From the IMG/VR virus record IMGVR_UViG_3300050140_000010, positions 1-23,988 of that record: DNA of 23,988 nt. One strand, written 5' to 3'. This DNA is from a virus. Under the pieces are notes generated by a model. That model was not told the origin of the DNA and made no database searches. It saw only the letters and a program-made list of their open reading frames with translations. Position numbers and translations under genes: made by a program. The number at the start of each line of letters is the position of its first letter. Within the stretch, counting starts at the first letter, position 1. Of this stretch, positions 3,409 to 23,988 are shown one piece after another.

Positions 3409-4041
3409 ATGAACGAATTAGTTTTTGAAAAACAGGACAAGCCCATGACCGACAGCTTAAAAGTGGCCGAGTATTTCGGGAAACGGCACGATCACGTGCT
3501 TAGAGACATAAAAGAGCTTGAATGTTCAGAAGAATTTCGACAGTCCAATTTTGGGGAGTCGAATTACATGAACGAACAGCGTCACAGGCAACCCAAATAT
3601 AACATGACCTTTGACGGTTTTATGTTCCTTGCAATGGGTTATCGCGGGAAAAGAGCGGCCTCACTCAAAGAAGCCTACATTAAAGAGTTTAACCACATGG
3701 GCGACTTCATCCGTCAACTCGATACCGCCCGTCTCGACTTTCACGACTTCGCGCAGGCAATTAAGGAGGCTCACGACGAACCGCGCAGTTATCACTTCTC
3801 GAATGAGTTTGACCTTATTAATAGAATAGTGCTCGGGACTTCCACAAGAAAATACAAAAGAGAGCACGGCATAGAGGCCAGCAGCATCAGAGAGTTTTTA
3901 ACTCCCGAACAACTTGATGGGGTAATTAGATTGCAACGCTTTGACATGGGACTTGTTGTAACGGTGCCGGAATACGAAGACCGCAAGCAGATATTGAGTA
4001 AATATTATGGGCGCATCCGGCAACTGGTATTAAAGGGGTGA
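3409..4041 (+). CDS. Rha-family phage regulatory protein (copy 2)
   Basis: 210 residues, starting at the ATG preceded by GAGAGG; upstream in-frame TTG and ATG codons are badly spaced. It matches copy 1 along its whole length: FEKQDKPMTDSLKVAE, FDGFMFLAMGYRGKRA, FSNEFDLINRIVLG, FLTPEQLDGVIRLQRFD and YEDRKQILSKYYGRI. The N-terminal half is the pRha domain; the C-terminal half is a conserved helical module. Conserved length and motifs argue that both copies are functional. Confidence 0.85.
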   Translation: MNELVFEKQDKPMTDSLKVAEYFGKRHDHVLRDIKELECSEEFRQSNFGESNYMNEQRHRQPKYNMTFDGFMFLAMGYRGKRAASLKEAYIKEFNHMGDFIRQLDTARLDFHDFAQAIKEAHDEPRSYHFSNEFDLINRIVLGTSTRKYKREHGIEASSIREFLTPEQLDGVIRLQRFDMGLVVTVPEYEDRKQILSKYYGRIRQLVLKG

Positions 4042-6570: not shown

Positions 6571-7146
6571 ATGAACGAACCACAAGGATGGAATACAGCA
6601 GAAGCTTTTACAGGCGATTTTGAAACCTTACCGCTCGGCGGTCATGTCTGCATCATCAAGGGTGCAAGGATAGAAGAAACTGCAAGCGGCAGTGAGATGC
6701 TCGTAGTGGCGTTTGATATTAACGACGGGAATAAATATGACGGATATTTTAAACGTCAGCATGAGCATAAGAAGCAGTCCGTACCAGATGCAAAATGGCC
6801 TAACGGCGGCACATACCGCCAGTTTACCAAAAACAAAGACGGCACCGCAAACAGCTTTTTTAAGGGAATGATCACTTGCATTGAAAAGTCAAACGCTAAT
6901 TTCAAATTTAATTTTGATGAAAAAACCTTGACCGGAAAACTGTTTGGCGGAGTGTTTGGACGTGAGCAGTTTGAGAGTGATGATGGCCTAAAATGGTCAA
7001 CTAAATGCGTTTCAATTCGTTCAACCGAAACCATTAATAAGGGCGTTGAAATACCTGCGGACAAGTTGGTAAAGGGCGCTACACAGCCTCAAGGGTTGCC
7101 GGAGGGATATACGGAGATTGCGGGTGACGATGATCTTCCTTTCTAA
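6571..7146 (+). CDS. SSB-like single-stranded DNA-binding protein (DUF669-type)
   Basis: 191 residues. The body (residues 1-150) is predicted beta-rich and matches what I know of DUF669 phage proteins. The extreme C-terminus is DDDLPF after an acidic stretch, nearly identical to the SSB tip (DDDIPF in E. coli) that recruits replication and repair proteins. Directly downstream of the Sak4-type gene, SD GGAGG. Its likely role is coating ssDNA and serving the recombinase and replisome. Confidence 0.75.
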   Translation: MNEPQGWNTAEAFTGDFETLPLGGHVCIIKGARIEETASGSEMLVVAFDINDGNKYDGYFKRQHEHKKQSVPDAKWPNGGTYRQFTKNKDGTANSFFKGMITCIEKSNANFKFNFDEKTLTGKLFGGVFGREQFESDDGLKWSTKCVSIRSTETINKGVEIPADKLVKGATQPQGLPEGYTEIAGDDDLPF

Positions 7147-7189
7147 ATCAAACGCTATGGGCGGCTAATCCCGCCCGAAAGGAGCAAAC

Positions 7190-7693
7190 ATGAACGAGAT
7201 TTGGGAAGACATCAAAGGATGCGAAGGGTTATATCAAGTTAGTGACAAGGGTCGCGTAAAAAGCTTTTGGTATGGGAGAACCAAAATACTTAAGTTAAGA
7301 ACGCTTGGAAATTATTTTGGGGTTTCTTTGCGTAATGGAGCGAGTAAAAAGAATAAAACAATACACAGACTTGTGGCTGAAACTTTTTTAAAAAACGAAA
7401 ACAGCTATCCGTGCATTAACCATAAAGATGAAAACAAATCAAATAATAATGCCACAAATCTCGAATGGTGCACTTATTCCTACAACAATGGATATGGGAC
7501 AAAACCAATCATACAAACGCTTAAAGTAGGAAAATCTATAAACCAGTATAGTAAAAATGGAACACGCATAAAAACATGGGATAGTATTTTAAGTGTCGAA
7601 AAAATATGCGGAATTAATAATTCCAATATCTCACAATGTTGCCAAGGAAAAAGAAAAACAGTTGGAGGATTTATATGGAGGTATGCCGAATGA
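7190..7693 (+). CDS. HNH homing endonuclease (NUMOD4-HNH)
   Basis: 167 residues. Residues 3-50 match NUMOD4 (IWEDIKGCEGLYQVSDKGRVKS). The HNH nuclease core follows: IHRLVAETF (58-66), CINHKDENKSNNNATNLEW (75-93). The C-terminal part (about 115-165) looks like a NUMOD1/IENR1 DNA-binding repeat (SINQYSKNGTRIKTWDS). It is a free-standing mobile gene placed after the recombination pair; its last bases overlap the start of the next gene. No flanking intron is recognisable. Confidence 0.85.
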   Translation: MNEIWEDIKGCEGLYQVSDKGRVKSFWYGRTKILKLRTLGNYFGVSLRNGASKKNKTIHRLVAETFLKNENSYPCINHKDENKSNNNATNLEWCTYSYNNGYGTKPIIQTLKVGKSINQYSKNGTRIKTWDSILSVEKICGINNSNISQCCQGKRKTVGGFIWRYAE

Positions 7694-8103
7694 TTGACGA
7701 GATTGAAAAGGCAATAGAAGTTTTTGAATCCGAGAAAAAATGTTGGGAACGTGAATGTTGTGATTGTAAAGCTGAGAACAAAGGGTGTTACCTTTCCACA
7801 ACTGATTTCATTTATGCCGAAGCTCGTGACGTTGCACTCCAAGTCCTCCGCTCCCAACTCACCCGTGAGAAGAATGAGCCGCTAACGCTTGAGGAATTAA
7901 AGGGGATGGAGAGATCGCCGATATGGACAATTACCAAAGGTGTGAACGGCTCTGGAAGGTGGGAACTGTTTGAATTTACAACATTGCGAATTTGCCCTCT
8001 TAAAAAGGTTTTGACACTCATTAATTTAGACGAAGGTGCAACAGACTATGATATTGAAACATACGCCAAAACGTGGTTTGCCTACCGCAAGCCCAATAAA
8101 TAA
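7690..8103 (+). CDS. Phage protein of unknown function with N-terminal Cys cluster
   Basis: 137 residues, starting at the ATG overlapping the HNH stop, with SD ATGGAGG inside the end of the HNH gene. The N-terminus is a coiled helix (MIDEIEKAIEVFESEKK) followed by C18, C23, C24, C26 and C33, typical of small phage proteins. The rest (EPLTLEELKGMERSPIW onward) looks like a common phage module. Unknown function. Confidence 0.6.
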   Translation: MIDEIEKAIEVFESEKKCWERECCDCKAENKGCYLSTTDFIYAEARDVALQVLRSQLTREKNEPLTLEELKGMERSPIWTITKGVNGSGRWELFEFTTLRICPLKKVLTLINLDEGATDYDIETYAKTWFAYRKPNK

Positions 8104-8143
8104 TACAATCCGTATATTTCGGTGGAGGAATGGGGGGGGTTAA

Positions 8144-9019
8144 TTGAAAGTGGGCTTGTGGAATGACGATCATAATTTTCCCAATCTTGCAACCATGAAA
8201 TTGTCTGCTTATCACAAGGCAAAAGGTGACAAAGTTGAGTTGTTAGATCACCTGAATACATACGATCTTGTTTATTGCTCAAAAGTGTTTGATTTTACAG
8301 CTGATGCGGAAGATGGTGCAATAATCAGGGCAGATAAGATTATTAGAGCAGGAAGCGGATATCACAACTATACTGACAATCTGCCCCCTGAGATTGAGCA
8401 CCTTTATCCCGACTATGGGCTTTATCCGCAATATAAAGAGGCATATGGATATTTAACAAGGGGATGTCCGAGGGGATGCTCATTTTGTATCGTTGCAGAT
8501 AAAGAGGGCAGAAAGAGTGTACACGTTGCAGATTTATCGGAGTTTTGGAGAGGGCAAAAGGAAATTAAGTTACTCGACCCGAACCTTTTGGCCTGTAAAG
8601 ACCACGAGCGGATTTTAAAGCAGTTGGCTGATTGTGGAGCATGGATAGACATTACGCAAGGTTTTGATATCCGATTTGTAACTCCTGAAAATATGCCACT
8701 TATAAACAAGATTAAAGTTAAAATGCTTCACTTCGCATGGGATAACCCAAAAGACGATCTGACAAAGCAGTTTGAATTTTTCAAAGCTCACACGGTTTTA
8801 GACTGGCACAAATTGAGAGTTTACGTGCTTGTCAATTTTAATAGTACCCACGAACAAGACTTATATCGGATATATAGACTGCGAGAATTAGGATTTGACC
8901 CTTTTGTAATGATTTTTGACAAGTTACACGCAAGCAAGCAAGTGAAGCAACTTGCGAGATGGGTAGACAATAAATGGATTTTCAGATCATGTGCAAAATT
9001 TGAGGATTACAAAGGGTAA
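8144..9019 (+). CDS. Phage radical SAM enzyme
   Basis: 291 residues from a TTG start just after a G-rich SD; the opening MKVGLW and HNFPNLATMKLSAYHKAKGD match the conserved N-terminus of this phage family. The radical SAM cluster motif CxxxCxxC is at C108, C112 and C115 (RGCPRGCSFC), binding a 4Fe-4S cluster that cleaves SAM to a radical. The N-terminal 100 residues resemble a cobalamin-binding-like domain. Substrate unknown; tRNA, DNA-base or peptide modification are possible. It sits just before the replication genes and shares the region with a PAPS-reductase-like gene. Confidence 0.8.
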   Translation: MKVGLWNDDHNFPNLATMKLSAYHKAKGDKVELLDHLNTYDLVYCSKVFDFTADAEDGAIIRADKIIRAGSGYHNYTDNLPPEIEHLYPDYGLYPQYKEAYGYLTRGCPRGCSFCIVADKEGRKSVHVADLSEFWRGQKEIKLLDPNLLACKDHERILKQLADCGAWIDITQGFDIRFVTPENMPLINKIKVKMLHFAWDNPKDDLTKQFEFFKAHTVLDWHKLRVYVLVNFNSTHEQDLYRIYRLRELGFDPFVMIFDKLHASKQVKQLARWVDNKWIFRSCAKFEDYKG

Positions 9020-13349: not shown

Positions 13350-13566
13350 TGAACTTGATTGGGATGAAAAGATTTCAGCTTTTTTTCTTGAATATGTGAA
13401 ACCCCAAAAAGACGCATACACGCCAAATGGGAACTTAACATTTACGGCAATTCGAGTAGCTGTTAAATTGCTTTTGAAAGAAAACGTGTTTTCGTCGAAG
13501 AATGACATGAAATTTGAAGCAATGAAAGATTACAAGATCGTGCTACCGGAAACAATTTTTGAATAG
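13342..13566 (+). CDS. Small protein of unknown function
   Basis: 74 residues from an ATG overlapping the preceding gene by eight bases. Begins MNDELDWDEKISAFFLEYV and ends KIVLPETIFE. No motif recognised. It is the last link of the coupled run that starts at 12079. Confidence 0.5.
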   Translation: MNDELDWDEKISAFFLEYVKPQKDAYTPNGNLTFTAIRVAVKLLLKENVFSSKNDMKFEAMKDYKIVLPETIFE

Positions 13567-13576
13567 GAGGCCACCC

Positions 13577-14221
13577 ATGACAAGTAAAATGGCACCGGCA
13601 GAGATAGCGGAGAGGCTTGAATGGATTTTACAAAATGCAAATATCGCTGGTGTAATAGACGGTATTGACCGTATGGCTTTGTCGGAAGCCGCCGAGATAG
13701 TCAGAAAGGTTGAGCGGGGCGAACTGGTGGATATTGTGAGGTGCGGGAGCTGCAAACGTTATAATTCAACAAATTGCCCCGCATGGAACGAATGTACAAA
13801 ATCAACCGCAAATTATATGACGTTTTGCAATGCGGGCGAACGAAAGGACGGCGAAGAAAAGCTGAAAGACCACAGACTGTATAAGTTTTATTACGGTGAG
13901 CAGTGCGTTTATTTGGGCAGAACCAGTCAAGATTTTAAGAACAGATTAAGAGGGCATTTTTTTAAAAAGCCGATGCACAGAGCGATTAACATAAATTTGG
14001 TTACAAAAATCGAAACGGTTGTTTTGCCGACACAGGCCGACATGTTTTTGTATGAGATTTATTACATAAACAAATTAAGACCAGCGCTTAACGTTGATGA
14101 CAAAGCAATCGACGGCTTGGGCTTGACGGTTAATTTGCCGGAACTGGAGTTTCAAGAGTATAAATTAAATTTGCTTGATAAATGGAAATTGATTTTAAAG
14201 GACGGTGACACCAATGTCTGA
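13577..14221 (+). CDS. Fusion of a small phage Cys protein with a GIY-YIG nuclease-like domain
   Basis: 214 residues, ATG after AGGAGGCC. Residues 1-90 look like a complete small phage protein: a helical part (MAPAEIAERLEWILQ), then Cys residues at 56, 59, 67, 73 and 84 ending MTFCNAGERKDG, a usual C-terminus. Residues 100-180 form a GIY-YIG-like domain: LYKFYY, VYLGRT (111-116), RLRGHF with R125, E160 in LYEIYYINK, and PALN. The domain is found alone in related phages, so this is likely an in-frame fusion made by insertion. Confidence 0.75.
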   Translation: MTSKMAPAEIAERLEWILQNANIAGVIDGIDRMALSEAAEIVRKVERGELVDIVRCGSCKRYNSTNCPAWNECTKSTANYMTFCNAGERKDGEEKLKDHRLYKFYYGEQCVYLGRTSQDFKNRLRGHFFKKPMHRAININLVTKIETVVLPTQADMFLYEIYYINKLRPALNVDDKAIDGLGLTVNLPELEFQEYKLNLLDKWKLILKDGDTNV

Positions 14222-15563: not shown

Positions 15564-15585
15564 GACCCCCGATTATTCGGAGGCC
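15564..15585 (-). terminator. Terminator of the reverse AP2 operon
   Basis: A 9-bp stem (15564-15572 with 15577-15585) with loop TTAT; on the reverse strand it is followed by TTTACTTTAT. The stop codon of the AP2 gene is the loop itself. Confidence 0.65.
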
Positions 15586-15947
15586 TTTAAATGTTTCTCT
15601 GCATTTTTACGGGCGCATACTGCATCGCCAAAATCGTCAAAAAATCCTAAATAATGATTTTTCCCATCATGATAAATATAGGCTTGCCATTTCTTACTTT
15701 GAGTTGACCATCTAACTCCGATTACGCCACTTTTATTTCTTTTGCCAGGTTTACAATAAGGAGTTGTACTATTTTTTAGGCAACCGCAAGACTTAGTATT
15801 GAGAGATACCAAGTCAACAGCAGGGATGTCAATCACATTTCCACAGTCACATTGGCATTTCCAAAAGTAGCTGCCCTGAGCTGTTTTTTTACTAACCCTG
15901 TACAGCGCAACAAGATGTGTAAAACGCCGTTTTGTTAAATCTTTCAT
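15573..15947 (-). CDS. AP2-domain DNA-binding protein with zinc-like N-terminus
   Basis: 124 residues. The N-terminal half matches the zinc-binding module common at the start of phage AP2/HNH proteins: C31, C33, C35 (KCQCDCGN) and C54, C56 (KSCGCL). Residues 73-118 form an AP2 domain (SGVIGVRWSTQSKKWQAYI; HYLGFFDDFGDAVCAR). The HNH nuclease usually found with such proteins is absent, leaving a pure DNA binder. It is the last gene of a four-gene reverse operon, coupled to the HTH gene by ATGA. Confidence 0.8.
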   Translation of the reverse strand: MKDLTKRRFTHLVALYRVSKKTAQGSYFWKCQCDCGNVIDIPAVDLVSLNTKSCGCLKNSTTPYCKPGKRNKSGVIGVRWSTQSKKWQAYIYHDGKNHYLGFFDDFGDAVCARKNAEKHLKASE

Positions 15948-19885: not shown

Positions 19886-21607
19886 ATGAATGAAGAGGAC
19901 AAGCAGAACCGCCAACTATTATATGCTGCGGTTTATCAAAGATACATAGAGGCAGGCGCAAGCCCGGCAGAAGCATCCGCCGCAACCGAGGGAATGATAT
20001 TCAAACACATCAACAATTTATTTGGATTTCAAGGTCTTGCTTATCAGATGGGGGAGATCTCTTTCCCCTTCTTTTGCAAATACTTTCTTCAAGACACATT
20101 CATACCGAAAGAAAACAATGCCGCCCGCGAACTTGCGCCGGTGCATCTTGAGGTGTGGGACGAGCTCGACAGGATGTTTCTACGGGATGAATTCGACAAA
20201 GAAGAATTCATACTTCCCCGAGGTTGTGCCAAAACAACAATAGTTGACTTTGCTTTGTCCGTGTGGTTGCACTGCTATAAAAAATCTACTTACACATTAG
20301 TTTGCGGACGTACAGAGCAGGACAGTACAGAATTTCTCGCACAAACTCGGCAGGCCTTTGAAGAGAATAAATATATCCTCGATGCTTTTGGGAAGTTGGT
20401 AAATACTAAATTAACCGTCAACAAATTGGAGCTTGAACTATCCAACAAAACAAAAATACAGGCCATATCTTCAACCTCTTCAATGCGTGGTAAAAAGTAT
20501 GACGGCAACCGCCCCAGCGTTATTATCGCAGACGATTATCAAGGGCGAATTGATATTATCACGCAGGAGGCAAGGGATAAAAAGTATAACACCTGGATGG
20601 AAGACAGCGGGTATGCAGGAGATAAAGCGGTCTACCGCAAAAAAGTGAAGATTAAGCAGGCAACAAAATTTATTGTTTGCGGCACTATCTTACATCGTGA
20701 CTGCTTTATGTCGAGGCTCCTACTCAATAAGGATTATAAGCACGTTTTAAAAAGAGCGGTTAATTTTGATGTAGACGATTTCTTCCACGCTGAATTGTGG
20801 GAAGAATTTCGTCTTATTTATTTTAACGACAAATTACAAGACAGTGTTTCGGCTGCTAAAGAGTTTTATTATCAGCACGAGCCGGAATTGCAATATAAAA
20901 CGATCTGGGAAGATAAATTTGATTGTCTTGACCTTGCGATAGACTATTATACCAACCCACAGGCATTTAAACAAGAGATGATGAACGATGCCTCAAAGAT
21001 TGGCGAAAAATGGTTTAAGTCTAACCGTGCCGATGAGGATATTGAAAATCACACCTTTGTTAAGACAATGCTTTGTGTTGACCCCGCTTCAACATCAACT
21101 CGTAATTCAGACAGTTTTGCTTTTCTTGTCGGCTCGCTTGCAGACAATGACTTTAAATATGTCCGCAAGGGCGAACTCCTAAAGATGGATGCCCGCACGG
21201 AGTTTGACAAATACATCGAGCATATTGTCAAACTTTTAAGGGATTATTCGGATATTACTTGCGTCTACATCGAGAAGAATACTTTTAACGGCTCCGACGC
21301 GAACCGATTAGAGCAGTTTATAGAAGCGGATCCGCTACTAAGGGGTAGAGGGATAACTATCATCAATGAGGCTACGAGGGCTAACAAGGACGATAAGATA
21401 GCAAGTTGCGTCGCGGATGTAAACAACGGCAGGATTATATTTAATGCCGAGGACACAGATTTTATTCAGCAGGTTATGGACTTCGCGGGAACAGATTTCA
21501 CGCAACACGATGATGCGCCCGATATTTTGTCTGAATTTAGTAATCGCATTAGCAATATTATTACAATTGGTACAATCACATTTTTAGATAAAAAAGTCTT
21601 GTTTTAA
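19886..21607 (+). CDS. terL: Terminase large subunit
   Basis: 573 residues, ATG with SD AAGGTGA. The ATPase half has Walker A PRGCAKTT (111-118), Walker B SVIIADD (211-217) and a coupling motif near GTILHRDC (266-273). The nuclease half has the RNase-H-like acidic set: D399 in LCVDPAST, E463 in VYIEKNT, and D543/D546 in HDDAPD. This is the motor that packages DNA into the prohead and cuts it at the end. The length is normal and the reading frame intact. Confidence 0.93.
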   Translation: MNEEDKQNRQLLYAAVYQRYIEAGASPAEASAATEGMIFKHINNLFGFQGLAYQMGEISFPFFCKYFLQDTFIPKENNAARELAPVHLEVWDELDRMFLRDEFDKEEFILPRGCAKTTIVDFALSVWLHCYKKSTYTLVCGRTEQDSTEFLAQTRQAFEENKYILDAFGKLVNTKLTVNKLELELSNKTKIQAISSTSSMRGKKYDGNRPSVIIADDYQGRIDIITQEARDKKYNTWMEDSGYAGDKAVYRKKVKIKQATKFIVCGTILHRDCFMSRLLLNKDYKHVLKRAVNFDVDDFFHAELWEEFRLIYFNDKLQDSVSAAKEFYYQHEPELQYKTIWEDKFDCLDLAIDYYTNPQAFKQEMMNDASKIGEKWFKSNRADEDIENHTFVKTMLCVDPASTSTRNSDSFAFLVGSLADNDFKYVRKGELLKMDARTEFDKYIEHIVKLLRDYSDITCVYIEKNTFNGSDANRLEQFIEADPLLRGRGITIINEATRANKDDKIASCVADVNNGRIIFNAEDTDFIQQVMDFAGTDFTQHDDAPDILSEFSNRISNIITIGTITFLDKKVLF

Positions 21608-21632
21608 AAAGCCTGCTTATTTAGCAGGCTTT
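21608..21632 (-). terminator. Terminator shared by terL end and the reverse RHH gene
   Basis: A perfect 9-bp stem (AAAGCCTGC, 21608-21616, with GCAGGCTTT, 21624-21632), loop TTATTTA. On the reverse strand the tail is TTTTT, better than the forward tail. The RHH stop codon is in the loop; the terL stop is one base before the stem. Confidence 0.75.
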
Positions 21633-21760
21633 AGGTATTCTTCAATTGCTTTTTCTATTATTTTGCTAATTGGTACCATAGTCTTTTCCGAATAGTCTTT
21701 GAGCTGTTTCACTAAACCTATCGGCAAAGATGTCCCGATTCGCTCTTTATTTTTTAGCAT
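21617..21760 (-). CDS. Ribbon-helix-helix (CopG/Arc-like) repressor
   Basis: 47 residues after GAGGTGATAATT. MLKNKERIGTSLPIGLVKQL forms the strand and first helix, KDYSEKTMVPISKIIEKAIE the second helix: the ribbon-helix-helix pattern, binding DNA as a dimer through the N-terminal strand. It is divergent from the GIY-YIG endonuclease, with overlapping promoters, so it likely represses itself and the nuclease. Confidence 0.8.
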   Translation of the reverse strand: MLKNKERIGTSLPIGLVKQLKDYSEKTMVPISKIIEKAIEEYLKPAK

Positions 21761-21778
21761 AATTATCACCTCAAAAAC

Positions 21779-21807
21779 ATTATACCACATAACACAAGGT
21801 ATTGACA
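21779..21807 (-). promoter_or_regulatory. Promoter of the RHH gene
   Basis: Reverse strand: perfect TATAAT (21784-21779), with TGTCAA 17 bp upstream (21807-21802), which is the same six bases as the forward -35. The weaker -35 makes strength uncertain. Confidence 0.5.
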
Positions 21808-21831
21808 AGTAACATAACTTTATGATATAAT
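21802..21831 (+). promoter_or_regulatory. Strong promoter of the GIY-YIG gene
   Basis: TTGACA (21802-21807), 18-bp spacer, TATAAT (21826-21831): both hexamers are consensus. Direct repeats ACATAAC at 21787-21793 and 21812-21818 flank the -35 and are candidate RHH operators. Confidence 0.7.
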
Positions 21832-21849
21832 ATATATGAGGTGAAAAGC

Positions 21850-22680
21850 ATGGAAGAAGAGGCCAATAAGCCATATGGTTTTATTTATATTACTACTAAC
21901 TTAATCAATGGGAAAAAGTACGTAGGGCAAAAAACATATAATAATCGTTGGAAGTGCTACTTAGGAAGTGGGAAATACTTTAAACTTGCGGTTAAGAAAC
22001 ACGGCAGAGAAAACTTTGTAAAAGAAATAGTTGCTATTGCATACTGCAAAGATGAACTTAACAAGTTAGAAGCAGAATATATAAAAAAATTCAATGCCGT
22101 TCAGTCTGCCGATTATTACAATGTTGCTACCGACAGTTTCCCTTCGTACATCGGGCTAAAGCATACAGAAGATTATAAAATCAAAATGAAAATACTTAAT
22201 GAAGGCAAACTGATGAGCGAAAAGTCAAAAGAAAGAATGAAAGAAAATCATTATGATGTTAGTGGGGAAAATAACCCGAACTATGGGAAACATTGGTCAG
22301 AAGAATGGCGTACAAATCATAGCAAAGCAATAAGCGGGGAAAATAATGTTTTATTTGGAACTCACCGCAGTGAAGAAACCAAACGGAAAATAAGTGAATC
22401 GAATAAAGGCAAAATTTTTAGTGAGAAACACTTGCAAAATTTAAGCAAGGCTCATAAAGGGAAGGAATTAGGAAGCAGTAATCCTAAAGCTAAAAAAGTA
22501 GTTTGTTTAACTGAAAATAAGATATTTGATACTTTAAAAGATGCTGCTGAATATTATAATTGTACAAGTTCAAATATTTCCATGTGTTGTAGTGACAGAA
22601 GCCGTAAGCATGCTGGTAAACTTTCAGATGGTACAAAACTGCAATGGATGTATTATAGTGACTATTTGCTGTTAGTCTAA
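21850..22680 (+). CDS. GIY-YIG homing endonuclease with NUMOD3 repeats
   Basis: 276 residues, ATG after GAGGTG. GIY-YIG nuclease: GFIYITTNLINGKKYVGQK (10-28), acidic catalytic E74 (LEAEYIKKF). Three NUMOD3-type repeats follow (NYGKHWSEEW; LFGTHRSEETKRKISESNKG; KHLQNLSKAHKGKE), then a NUMOD1/IENR1 DNA-binding end (KVVCLTENKIFDTLKDAAEY). Similar in build to I-BmoI/I-TevI types. It has its own promoter and terminator and sits between terL and the portal gene, so it is a mobile gene; no intron is evident. Confidence 0.88.
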   Translation: MEEEANKPYGFIYITTNLINGKKYVGQKTYNNRWKCYLGSGKYFKLAVKKHGRENFVKEIVAIAYCKDELNKLEAEYIKKFNAVQSADYYNVATDSFPSYIGLKHTEDYKIKMKILNEGKLMSEKSKERMKENHYDVSGENNPNYGKHWSEEWRTNHSKAISGENNVLFGTHRSEETKRKISESNKGKIFSEKHLQNLSKAHKGKELGSSNPKAKKVVCLTENKIFDTLKDAAEYYNCTSSNISMCCSDRSRKHAGKLSDGTKLQWMYYSDYLLLV

Positions 22681-22695
22681 AAATAAATAACAATT

Positions 22696-22726
22696 AAGCA
22701 CTCTCGGATGGGGGTGCTTTTGTTTT
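22696..22726 (+). terminator. Terminator after the homing endonuclease gene
   Basis: A 10-bp stem (22696-22705 with 22710-22719, two G-T pairs) with loop GGAT, followed by TTTGTTTT. It would isolate the cassette from the portal gene 16 bp downstream, so portal expression needs antitermination or a start site after it. Confidence 0.7.
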
Positions 22727-22741
22727 AGGGGGAAAGCATAA

Positions 22742-23988
22742 ATGTTCGATGTGAATGTGAATAAAGAAATTCTTACTAAGGTTTTTGGAAATTTTCAACT
22801 TTCTTATCACATCAATCTCAAAATGTACCTGTATTACATGGGGGTAACGGATGGAAATACTTTGGGTATTTCTACAAATGGTTCATATGACGATTTGGTA
22901 ATTAATGAGTTTAATTTGGATGCGGAAGGTGCAGGAAACTATAATTTCGTAAATGACAGATATGGAAAAGGAATATCTACCAATTTTATTAAAAAATTCA
23001 TTAAAGAAGAGGTGTCTTATAGCGTCGGAAATGATATTACTTACACCAGTCACAAGGGCGATGATAAAATCATTGAACTGTTGAGGCAAAGCACAGCCCA
23101 TTGGAAAGCTGACCATGATGCAAACTTGGCGAAAAATATGTTAGTTTATTCTGCTGCTTATGAATTGTACTACATTGATAAAGATGCTCAATTTTGCAGC
23201 CGAGTAATCAGCCCAAGACACGGTATTGCCTATACTGATAGTTGCGATAATTTAATATTTTTTCTTCATATTTTCAGACAACGCTATGATACCAAAATGT
23301 ATGTTGATATTTATACCGACAGCGAAATTATACATTGTGATGAAACATTTAACGAATTAGGACGCACTTCTCATCCTTTTGGATGTGTTCCGATAGGTAT
23401 TGCAACGGTAAGTGAAGAAGGATGGTTGGATAGCATTTATAGCGATATTAAATCTCTTCAAGATGCTTATTCCAGAAATTTGAGCGACATATCAAGCGAG
23501 ATAACCGAGTTTAGGAACGCTTATCTTGTGCTCAATAACCTCGACTTGCAAGACGGTGACCTTGCCACAATGAAAAAGCAGGGCATTATGAAAACCAAAG
23601 GCAAAGACGGCTCCGCTGGATGGCTTATCAAAACTATCAACGACACTTTCATCCAAAACACTCTCACAACCCTTGAAGATAAGATGTTCCAAATTTCTTG
23701 CCACATAAACAGCAACGAGAAAATGAGCGCCAACACTTCAAGTCTGGCACTGCGCGCGCGCCTCATATCTCTTGAGGAAAAATGTAAACTCAATCAAAAA
23801 GCCCTTGCAAATTGCGTAAAAACACGGCTTCAGATGCTACTTGTTTACATGAACGGACTGAAAAACACGTCTTACGATTACAGGGACATAAAGGTCAAGT
23901 TTACGCCGAATATTCCGTCAGATGATCTGACAAATAGCACTGTTGTCACCGCTTTGGGCGATAAACTAAGCACCGAAACCGCCCTGTC
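22742..23988 (+). CDS. Portal protein, partial (SPP1 gp6-like)
   Basis: Open from the ATG (SD GGGGGAAAG) to the window edge, about 415 residues with no stop, so truncated by the window. Features: an N-terminal NVNKEILTKVFGNF, a long conserved middle (YSVGNDITYTSHKGDDKIIE; SAAYELYYIDKDAQFCSRVI), GWLDSIYSDIKSLQDAYSRN, and a helical stem. This pattern is typical of SPP1 gp6-type portals, which form the dodecameric ring through which terminase threads DNA. It follows terL, as usual, apart from the inserted cassette. Confidence 0.85.
   Translation, partial: MFDVNVNKEILTKVFGNFQLSYHINLKMYLYYMGVTDGNTLGISTNGSYDDLVINEFNLDAEGAGNYNFVNDRYGKGISTNFIKKFIKEEVSYSVGNDITYTSHKGDDKIIELLRQSTAHWKADHDANLAKNMLVYSAAYELYYIDKDAQFCSRVISPRHGIAYTDSCDNLIFFLHIFRQRYDTKMYVDIYTDSEIIHCDETFNELGRTSHPFGCVPIGIATVSEEGWLDSIYSDIKSLQDAYSRNLSDISSEITEFRNAYLVLNNLDLQDGDLATMKKQGIMKTKGKDGSAGWLIKTINDTFIQNTLTTLEDKMFQISCHINSNEKMSANTSSLALRARLISLEEKCKLNQKALANCVKTRLQMLLVYMNGLKNTSYDYRDIKVKFTPNIPSDDLTNSTVVTALGDKLSTETAL

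Follow-up and report, generated by a model that had tools for sequence, protein, structure and literature searches.

A GIY-YIG homing endonuclease gene and a divergent RHH gene inserted between phage terL and portal: a probable portable repressor switch that recurs with unrelated nucleases

Described systems closest to the unit

Free-standing GIY-YIG endonucleases of the T4 Seg type (phrog_314, TIGR01453) combine a catalytic with a NUMOD3 domain, are located between structural genes and are present or absent among close relatives. According to the sections of a review drawn on here (PMC2988022), homing endonucleases are controlled by phage promoters, by RNA structure or, if intron-encoded, by the enzyme itself, as in T4, where I-TevI represses its own promoter; for free-standing GIY-YIG genes, these sections describe no dedicated divergent repressor. 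The unit reported here was found in a virus record of 23,988 bases, the whole of which was analysed and is referred to as the window. It shares all of the above features with the Seg type but does have a divergent gene for a putative repressor of its own. As in I-TevI, a promoter-bound protein is proposed to limit expression of the nuclease; however, whereas the endonuclease is itself the repressor in I-TevI, this role would here fall to the product of a separate RHH gene which is common to unrelated nucleases.

Like this product, CopG and Arc are RHH proteins of minimal size that have no additional domains. The former controls the copy number of plasmids and the latter a gene of P22, and neither of them is known to guard a nuclease. 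Separate small regulators of selfish, potentially harmful genes are also represented by the Omega/PaaR repressors of three-gene toxin-antitoxin systems and by the C proteins of restriction-modification systems, the latter of which form incompatibility groups by operator (PMC3874152). The unit in the window differs from both in that it contains neither antitoxin nor methylase, that its genes are divergent and that one regulator family is combined with five kinds of nuclease.

The insertion between terL and portal

The order of genes in the window is terL, RHH (minus strand), GIY-YIG/NUMOD3 (plus strand) and portal, with the inserted unit flanked by two copies of TTGTTTTA (Table 1). The nuclease scores above cut-off with PF01541, PF19835 and PF07460, that is, with the GIY-YIG catalytic domain and the DNA-binding motif, and reaches 95.6 bits with TIGR01453 (cut-off 56). 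A search for a group I intron returned no intron family at E<=1 within 21400-22900, and by its sequence the unit would be a mobile free-standing homing endonuclease gene, homing itself being presumed. The RHH protein matches PF12651 (RHH_3, E=2.6e-15, 56.5 bits as compared to a cut-off of 21.6) as well as phrog_3180 'Arc-like repressor'. Its AlphaFold2 model (pLDDT 86) shows helices at residues 14-27 and 31-43, the second one ending four residues before the end of the 47-residue protein, and a toxin-binding tail is absent; Foldseek matches of the model include CopG and Arc, none of them at E<=0.001. Both open reading frames of the initial annotation, which was made from the sequence alone, are thus confirmed by profiles. 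No second RHH gene of this type is present in the window. Three other homing-type genes, coding for a NUMOD4-HNH protein (7190-7693, +), a GIY-YIG-like protein (13559-14221, +) and an HNH/AP2-like fragment (15573-15947, -), are without an RHH gene.

Table 1. Coordinates of the unit, its flanks and its predicted control elements in the window
Feature	Position	Strand	Basis
terL, upstream flank, gene hosting the insertion site	19886..21607	+	phrog_38 terminase large subunit, E=2e-83
8-bp border repeat TTGTTTTA, left copy, end of terL	21599..21606	.	read from sequence
Hairpin across RHH stop codon, putative RHH intrinsic terminator	21608..21632	-	T-run on minus strand
RHH (Arc/CopG-like) repressor gene, 47 aa, without C-terminal extension	21617..21760	-	PF12651, phrog_3180, AlphaFold2
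RHH promoter, -10 box TATAAT	21779..21784	-	sequence
Left ACATAAC copy, possible second operator half-site	21787..21793	+	25 bp from right copy
Nuclease promoter, -35 box TTGACA	21802..21807	+	sequence
RHH promoter, -35 box TTGTCA, overlapping the nuclease -35 box	21803..21808	-	sequence
Right ACATAAC copy, within conserved operator stretch	21812..21818	+	shared with L202, L203
Predicted core operator, inverted repeat CATAA-CT-TTATG	21813..21824	.	nuclease promoter -35/-10 spacer
Nuclease promoter, -10 box TATAAT, extended TG	21826..21831	+	sequence
GIY-YIG/NUMOD3 homing endonuclease gene, 276 aa	21850..22680	+	NUMOD3, SegE-type GIY-YIG, GIY-YIG, phrog_314, TIGR01453
Intrinsic terminator 3' of the nuclease gene	22696..22719	+	hairpin
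8-bp border repeat TTGTTTTA, right copy, before portal ribosome-binding site	22720..22727	.	read from sequence
portal, downstream flank, runs off the window	22742..23986	+	PF05133 SPP1_portal, E=6e-79

The initial annotation had regarded the two genes as a self-contained cassette with a dedicated repressor and had proposed a search for phages in which terL and portal are directly joined. Such phages exist. Four of the five relatives compared in viral contigs (TerL 89-94% identical), namely L006-L009 with TerL identities of 89-92%, have an empty site with a terL-portal gap of 9-12 nt and contain neither the RHH gene nor the nuclease gene. As the whole unit is missing at the empty sites, the RHH gene lies inside the insertion. 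A self-contained cassette with its own repressor is well supported by these empty sites and by the recurrence of the pair elsewhere, both at further insertion sites and in further phages. The fifth relative, L005, carries a different unit at the terL/portal boundary, in which an RHH gene is paired with a divergent gene of the HNH type and which is placed within a duplicated 5' end of portal; a truncated portal 5' end of about 15 codons is found upstream of the HNH cassette and a recoded 5' end downstream (6720-8300). The same place is occupied in L041 by an RHH gene 63% identical to that of the window with a different GIY-YIG gene (31%). By eye, the 5' end of a RuvC-like gene is similarly duplicated around the HNH cassette of L081 (operator at 3417). 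Duplication of the target gene was considered as a general signature of insertion and rejected, since among 40 loci the test was clear only for L005. Finally, the genes queried from the window have 100% identical copies in a contig of 39,828 bases, and because this longer copy has an integrase domain the phage is probably temperate.

The two promoters are close to consensus (12/12 positions for the forward TTGACA-18-TATAAT, which also has an extended -10 box, and 11/12 for the reverse TTGTCA-18-TATAAT), and their -35 boxes overlap with an offset of one base. The overlap of divergent promoters noticed initially therefore holds, but the same six bases do not serve both directions: the reverse box is TTGTCA (21808-21803), one base off TTGACA, and TGTCAA, which had been taken for it, is merely the complement of the forward box. 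Likewise, the ACATAAC repeats proposed as operators are present at 21787 and 21812, 25 bp apart, but the pair alone does not exceed chance, as some 7-mer direct repeat turns up in 41% of dinucleotide-shuffled versions of the 89-bp intergenic region. The unit L202 has ACATATC at the same spacing of 25 bp. The operator core reads better as an inverted repeat than as a direct repeat of ACATAAC, and CATAACTTTATG is the candidate RHH-binding sequence within 21760-21850 of the window.

Hairpins are found at both ends of the unit, as had been described. The left one, however, straddles the stop codon of the RHH gene, and with a T-run located on the minus strand it looks like the terminator of the RHH gene itself; its tail on the plus strand is AGGTATTC, and it would hardly stop late transcription coming from terL. 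The suggested insulation from late transcription thus finds no support on the left side, and since a left hairpin that could act on the plus strand was found in 1/41 recurrent cassettes and a 3' terminator of the nuclease gene in 8/41 (as compared to 9/83 control gene ends), insulation at both ends is not general either. An own-strand terminator of the RHH gene is present in 20/41 cassettes at a strict threshold below which that of the window falls.

Recurrence of the RHH gene and its putative operator

When viral contigs were searched with an alignment built solely from RHH sequences, 55 loci were obtained, 41 of which are distinct. A divergent nuclease gene is present in 33 of these 41 (31/39 without two near-duplicate pairs), a fraction which applies to this RHH branch because most of the RHH genes behind the seed alignment were linked to nucleases. 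The arrangement is more general than initially guessed, as the nuclease is not always of the GIY-YIG type: there are 12 HNH, 2 HNH_3 and 5 phrog_374 HNH genes, 6 GIY-YIG genes (one with an internal stop), 4 TnpB genes, 1 LAGLIDADG gene and 3 genes for zinc-finger endonucleases, with an HNH-like domain at the end of one of the three proteins. That the zinc-finger protein is an endonuclease is suggested by an IE.DGEQH motif and PHROG matches; a fold search with its model (pLDDT 62) gave nothing meaningful. The -35 region is shared between both promoters in 30 of 43 nuclease cassettes (shuffles: mean 1.8, maximum 6), and 13 lack this geometry; TTGCAA, which is its own reverse complement, occurs as the -35 box for both directions with 17-bp spacers. 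A search with the promoter pattern TATGATATAATATANNTNNGGTGA returned three chance loci and two already known ones.

Such units are scattered through viruses of Gram-positive bacteria. The pair is inserted between terS and terL, between terL and portal, after portal, at a RuvC-like gene and, with TnpB, in bacterial chromosomes. Isolated phages of Streptococcus thermophilus and related ones carry it between terS and terL, and in D1811 and CHPC1040, whose terS is 94-99.8% identical to that of P7154, terS is joined directly to terL and the site is empty. Brussowvirus CHPC1042 has an Arc-like repressor divergent from an HNH gene. What is annotated in the Anoxybacillus phage A403 (L121, 1869-2414) as the small terminase subunit is, by Pfam, an HNH endonuclease (PF01844, E=2.7e-13), and its gene diverges from that of an Arc-like repressor. 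Among 391 genomes of the class Clostridia there are five strong RHH_3 matches, one adjoining a LAGLIDADG gene and one TnpB, and no nuclease was found beside the weaker matches in these genomes; among 398 Bacillota genomes the RHH branch occurs in 5, the readable neighbours being TnpB or TnpB-like by eye. The loci L219-L225 on Bacillota chromosomes are RHH-TnpB units. In G537 two RHH-TnpB copies, 99% identical over 362 bp, lie at contig ends, which suggests an IS-like repeat, and in L221 the RHH gene adjoins a repeat array which borders on cas-like genes.

The initial annotation had named retention of the RHH gene without the nuclease as evidence against a joint cassette. This situation does occur, in the first RHH locus of L047, in L128 and in L169, but there a promoter or operator remains from which the nuclease has been lost, which looks like decay rather than an independent function. 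At L047 2360-2490, an RHH gene of the window's group is left without nuclease and its promoter region runs into the apparent C-terminal tail of a cytosine methyltransferase. In L078 and L079 an in-frame stop interrupts a GIY-YIG gene whose operator is intact, a state to be expected of homing genes in decay.

The putative operator goes with the RHH gene and not with the nuclease. The intergenic stretch of the window is shared exactly over 29 bp with L202 (HNH) and over 24 bp with L203 (GIY-YIG), as compared to a maximum of 13 bp in shuffles, and L201 (zinc-finger endonuclease) has 13 bp in common with it and a similar core. All 18 viral contigs matching the 20-bp pattern GTCCTTGCAAGTCCTTGGAC are RHH units or decayed ones, in which it precedes GIY-YIG, HNH and TnpB genes. 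Similarly, 15 of the 19 contigs matched by TTGCAACTACNNGTAGTTA, which precedes GIY-YIG, HNH, TnpB, LAGLIDADG and zinc-finger endonuclease genes, are cassettes, two of them cut off before the nuclease; the other four are ordinary sequence without an RHH gene. A fourth group with TACGTATATACGTA-like sites comprises L047 (HNH), L052 (GIY-YIG) and Streptococcus phages, that is, phages of different hosts. In the less similar units L041, L005 and L025, no confident assignment of an operator was reached. Across 338 cassette pairs of different nuclease class, operator identity correlates with RHH identity (Spearman rho 0.72, exceeded in 0 of 2000 permutations). This shows that the RHH gene and the intergenic region travel together, though binding is not proved by correlation alone. 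The group B operator gave three matches in bacterial genomes, all by chance, and the group F pattern gave none in the 398 Bacillota genomes. One phage, IMGVR_UViG_3300034171_000127 (L047, L086), has three RHH units of three operator groups, and another, IMGVR_UViG_3300023301_000735 (L052), has two units of two groups.

A proposed negative-feedback switch

The anatomy of the unit, its presence or absence as a whole, its recurrence, the co-inheritance of RHH gene and operator across kinds of nuclease and the bias in orientation lead us to suggest, with a probability of about 0.72, that a portable RHH switch acting by negative feedback controls the mobile, free-standing homing endonuclease gene of this unit. 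The RHH protein would bind the pseudo-palindromic operator between the divergent promoters and thereby cover or abut the two -35 boxes where they overlap, together with the nuclease promoter's spacer, so that both promoters would be blocked and the nuclease as well as the RHH protein itself repressed. Upon entry of the DNA into a repressor-free cell, where a competing genome may be present, the near-consensus, host-type promoter would give rise to a burst of nuclease, which could cut a co-infecting genome without the unit and thus promote homing, until accumulating RHH protein would shut expression down and keep it down in the prophage. It counts against this reading that, within the late operon, a terminator on the nuclease side would be expected to exert polarity on portal if neither leakiness nor antitermination relieves it. 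Moreover, a strictly lytic life cycle is likely for some of the Streptococcus phages that carry the unit; if so, protection of the prophage cannot be the whole reason for the switch.

But would the nuclease be made upon entry or late in infection? The same RHH switch might be released by late transcription, with upstream structural transcripts antisense to the RHH gene lowering the RHH supply and reading into the nuclease gene, which would then be expressed in the lytic phase. The nuclease gene is indeed on the same strand as its left neighbour in 39/41 cases and as its right neighbour in 36/38, the RHH gene thus being antisense to the operon, the left hairpin is usable on the plus strand in a single cassette, and the longer copy of the window's phage has an integrase. 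Yet selection against disruption of the operon could be enough to produce the bias, and a nuclease with a near-consensus promoter of its own does not need read-through, and we therefore consider this timing unlikely. The likeness to a toxin-antitoxin layout seen initially finds no support. Although a small RHH gene adjoins the nuclease gene and RHH domains are common in antitoxins (PMC8987985), the protein is a bare DNA-binding domain whose predicted fold stops at the second helix, the genes are divergent and form no antitoxin-toxin operon, and RHH genes without nuclease exist as do broken nucleases with an RHH gene. Moreover, one RHH/operator type is combined with up to five kinds of nuclease of unrelated folds, which is hard to square with direct neutralisation, and it seems highly improbable that the RHH protein serves as the antitoxin of a toxic nuclease in an addiction module. 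We attach hardly more than nominal weight to the idea that it is a regulator of the phage, for instance of late genes, which merely adjoins a homing endonuclease gene: 8 of the 41 RHH loci are without nuclease and some of these lie beside replication genes (L167, L177), but the phages with empty sites lack RHH gene and nuclease together, and the pair is found at many sites including bacterial chromosomes with TnpB.

If the negative-feedback switch is taken as the basis, its versions may form orthogonal groups, a unit already in place silencing newcomers of its own group but not those of others, a tentative extension that would amount to superinfection-style compatibility groups among nuclease genes. 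It is part of the same speculative reading that unrelated selfish nucleases, protein-guided ones as well as the RNA-guided TnpB, might repeatedly have picked up one and the same exchangeable control element, made up of repressor, operator and a two-way promoter with a shared -35 box.

Taken singly, homing endonucleases, RHH repressors and TnpB have all been described before. A dedicated exchangeable RHH control unit is undescribed in the open-access papers searched, a scope outside which bioRxiv and most subscription journals fall. The finding bears on how free-standing homing endonucleases outside T4 spare their hosts and on the timing of their expression, and the presence of the unit in isolated phages of Streptococcus thermophilus makes it amenable to study. 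If true, a swappable repressor module across nuclease folds and TnpB would provide one testable rule for many elements and would supply a set of small operator/repressor pairs.
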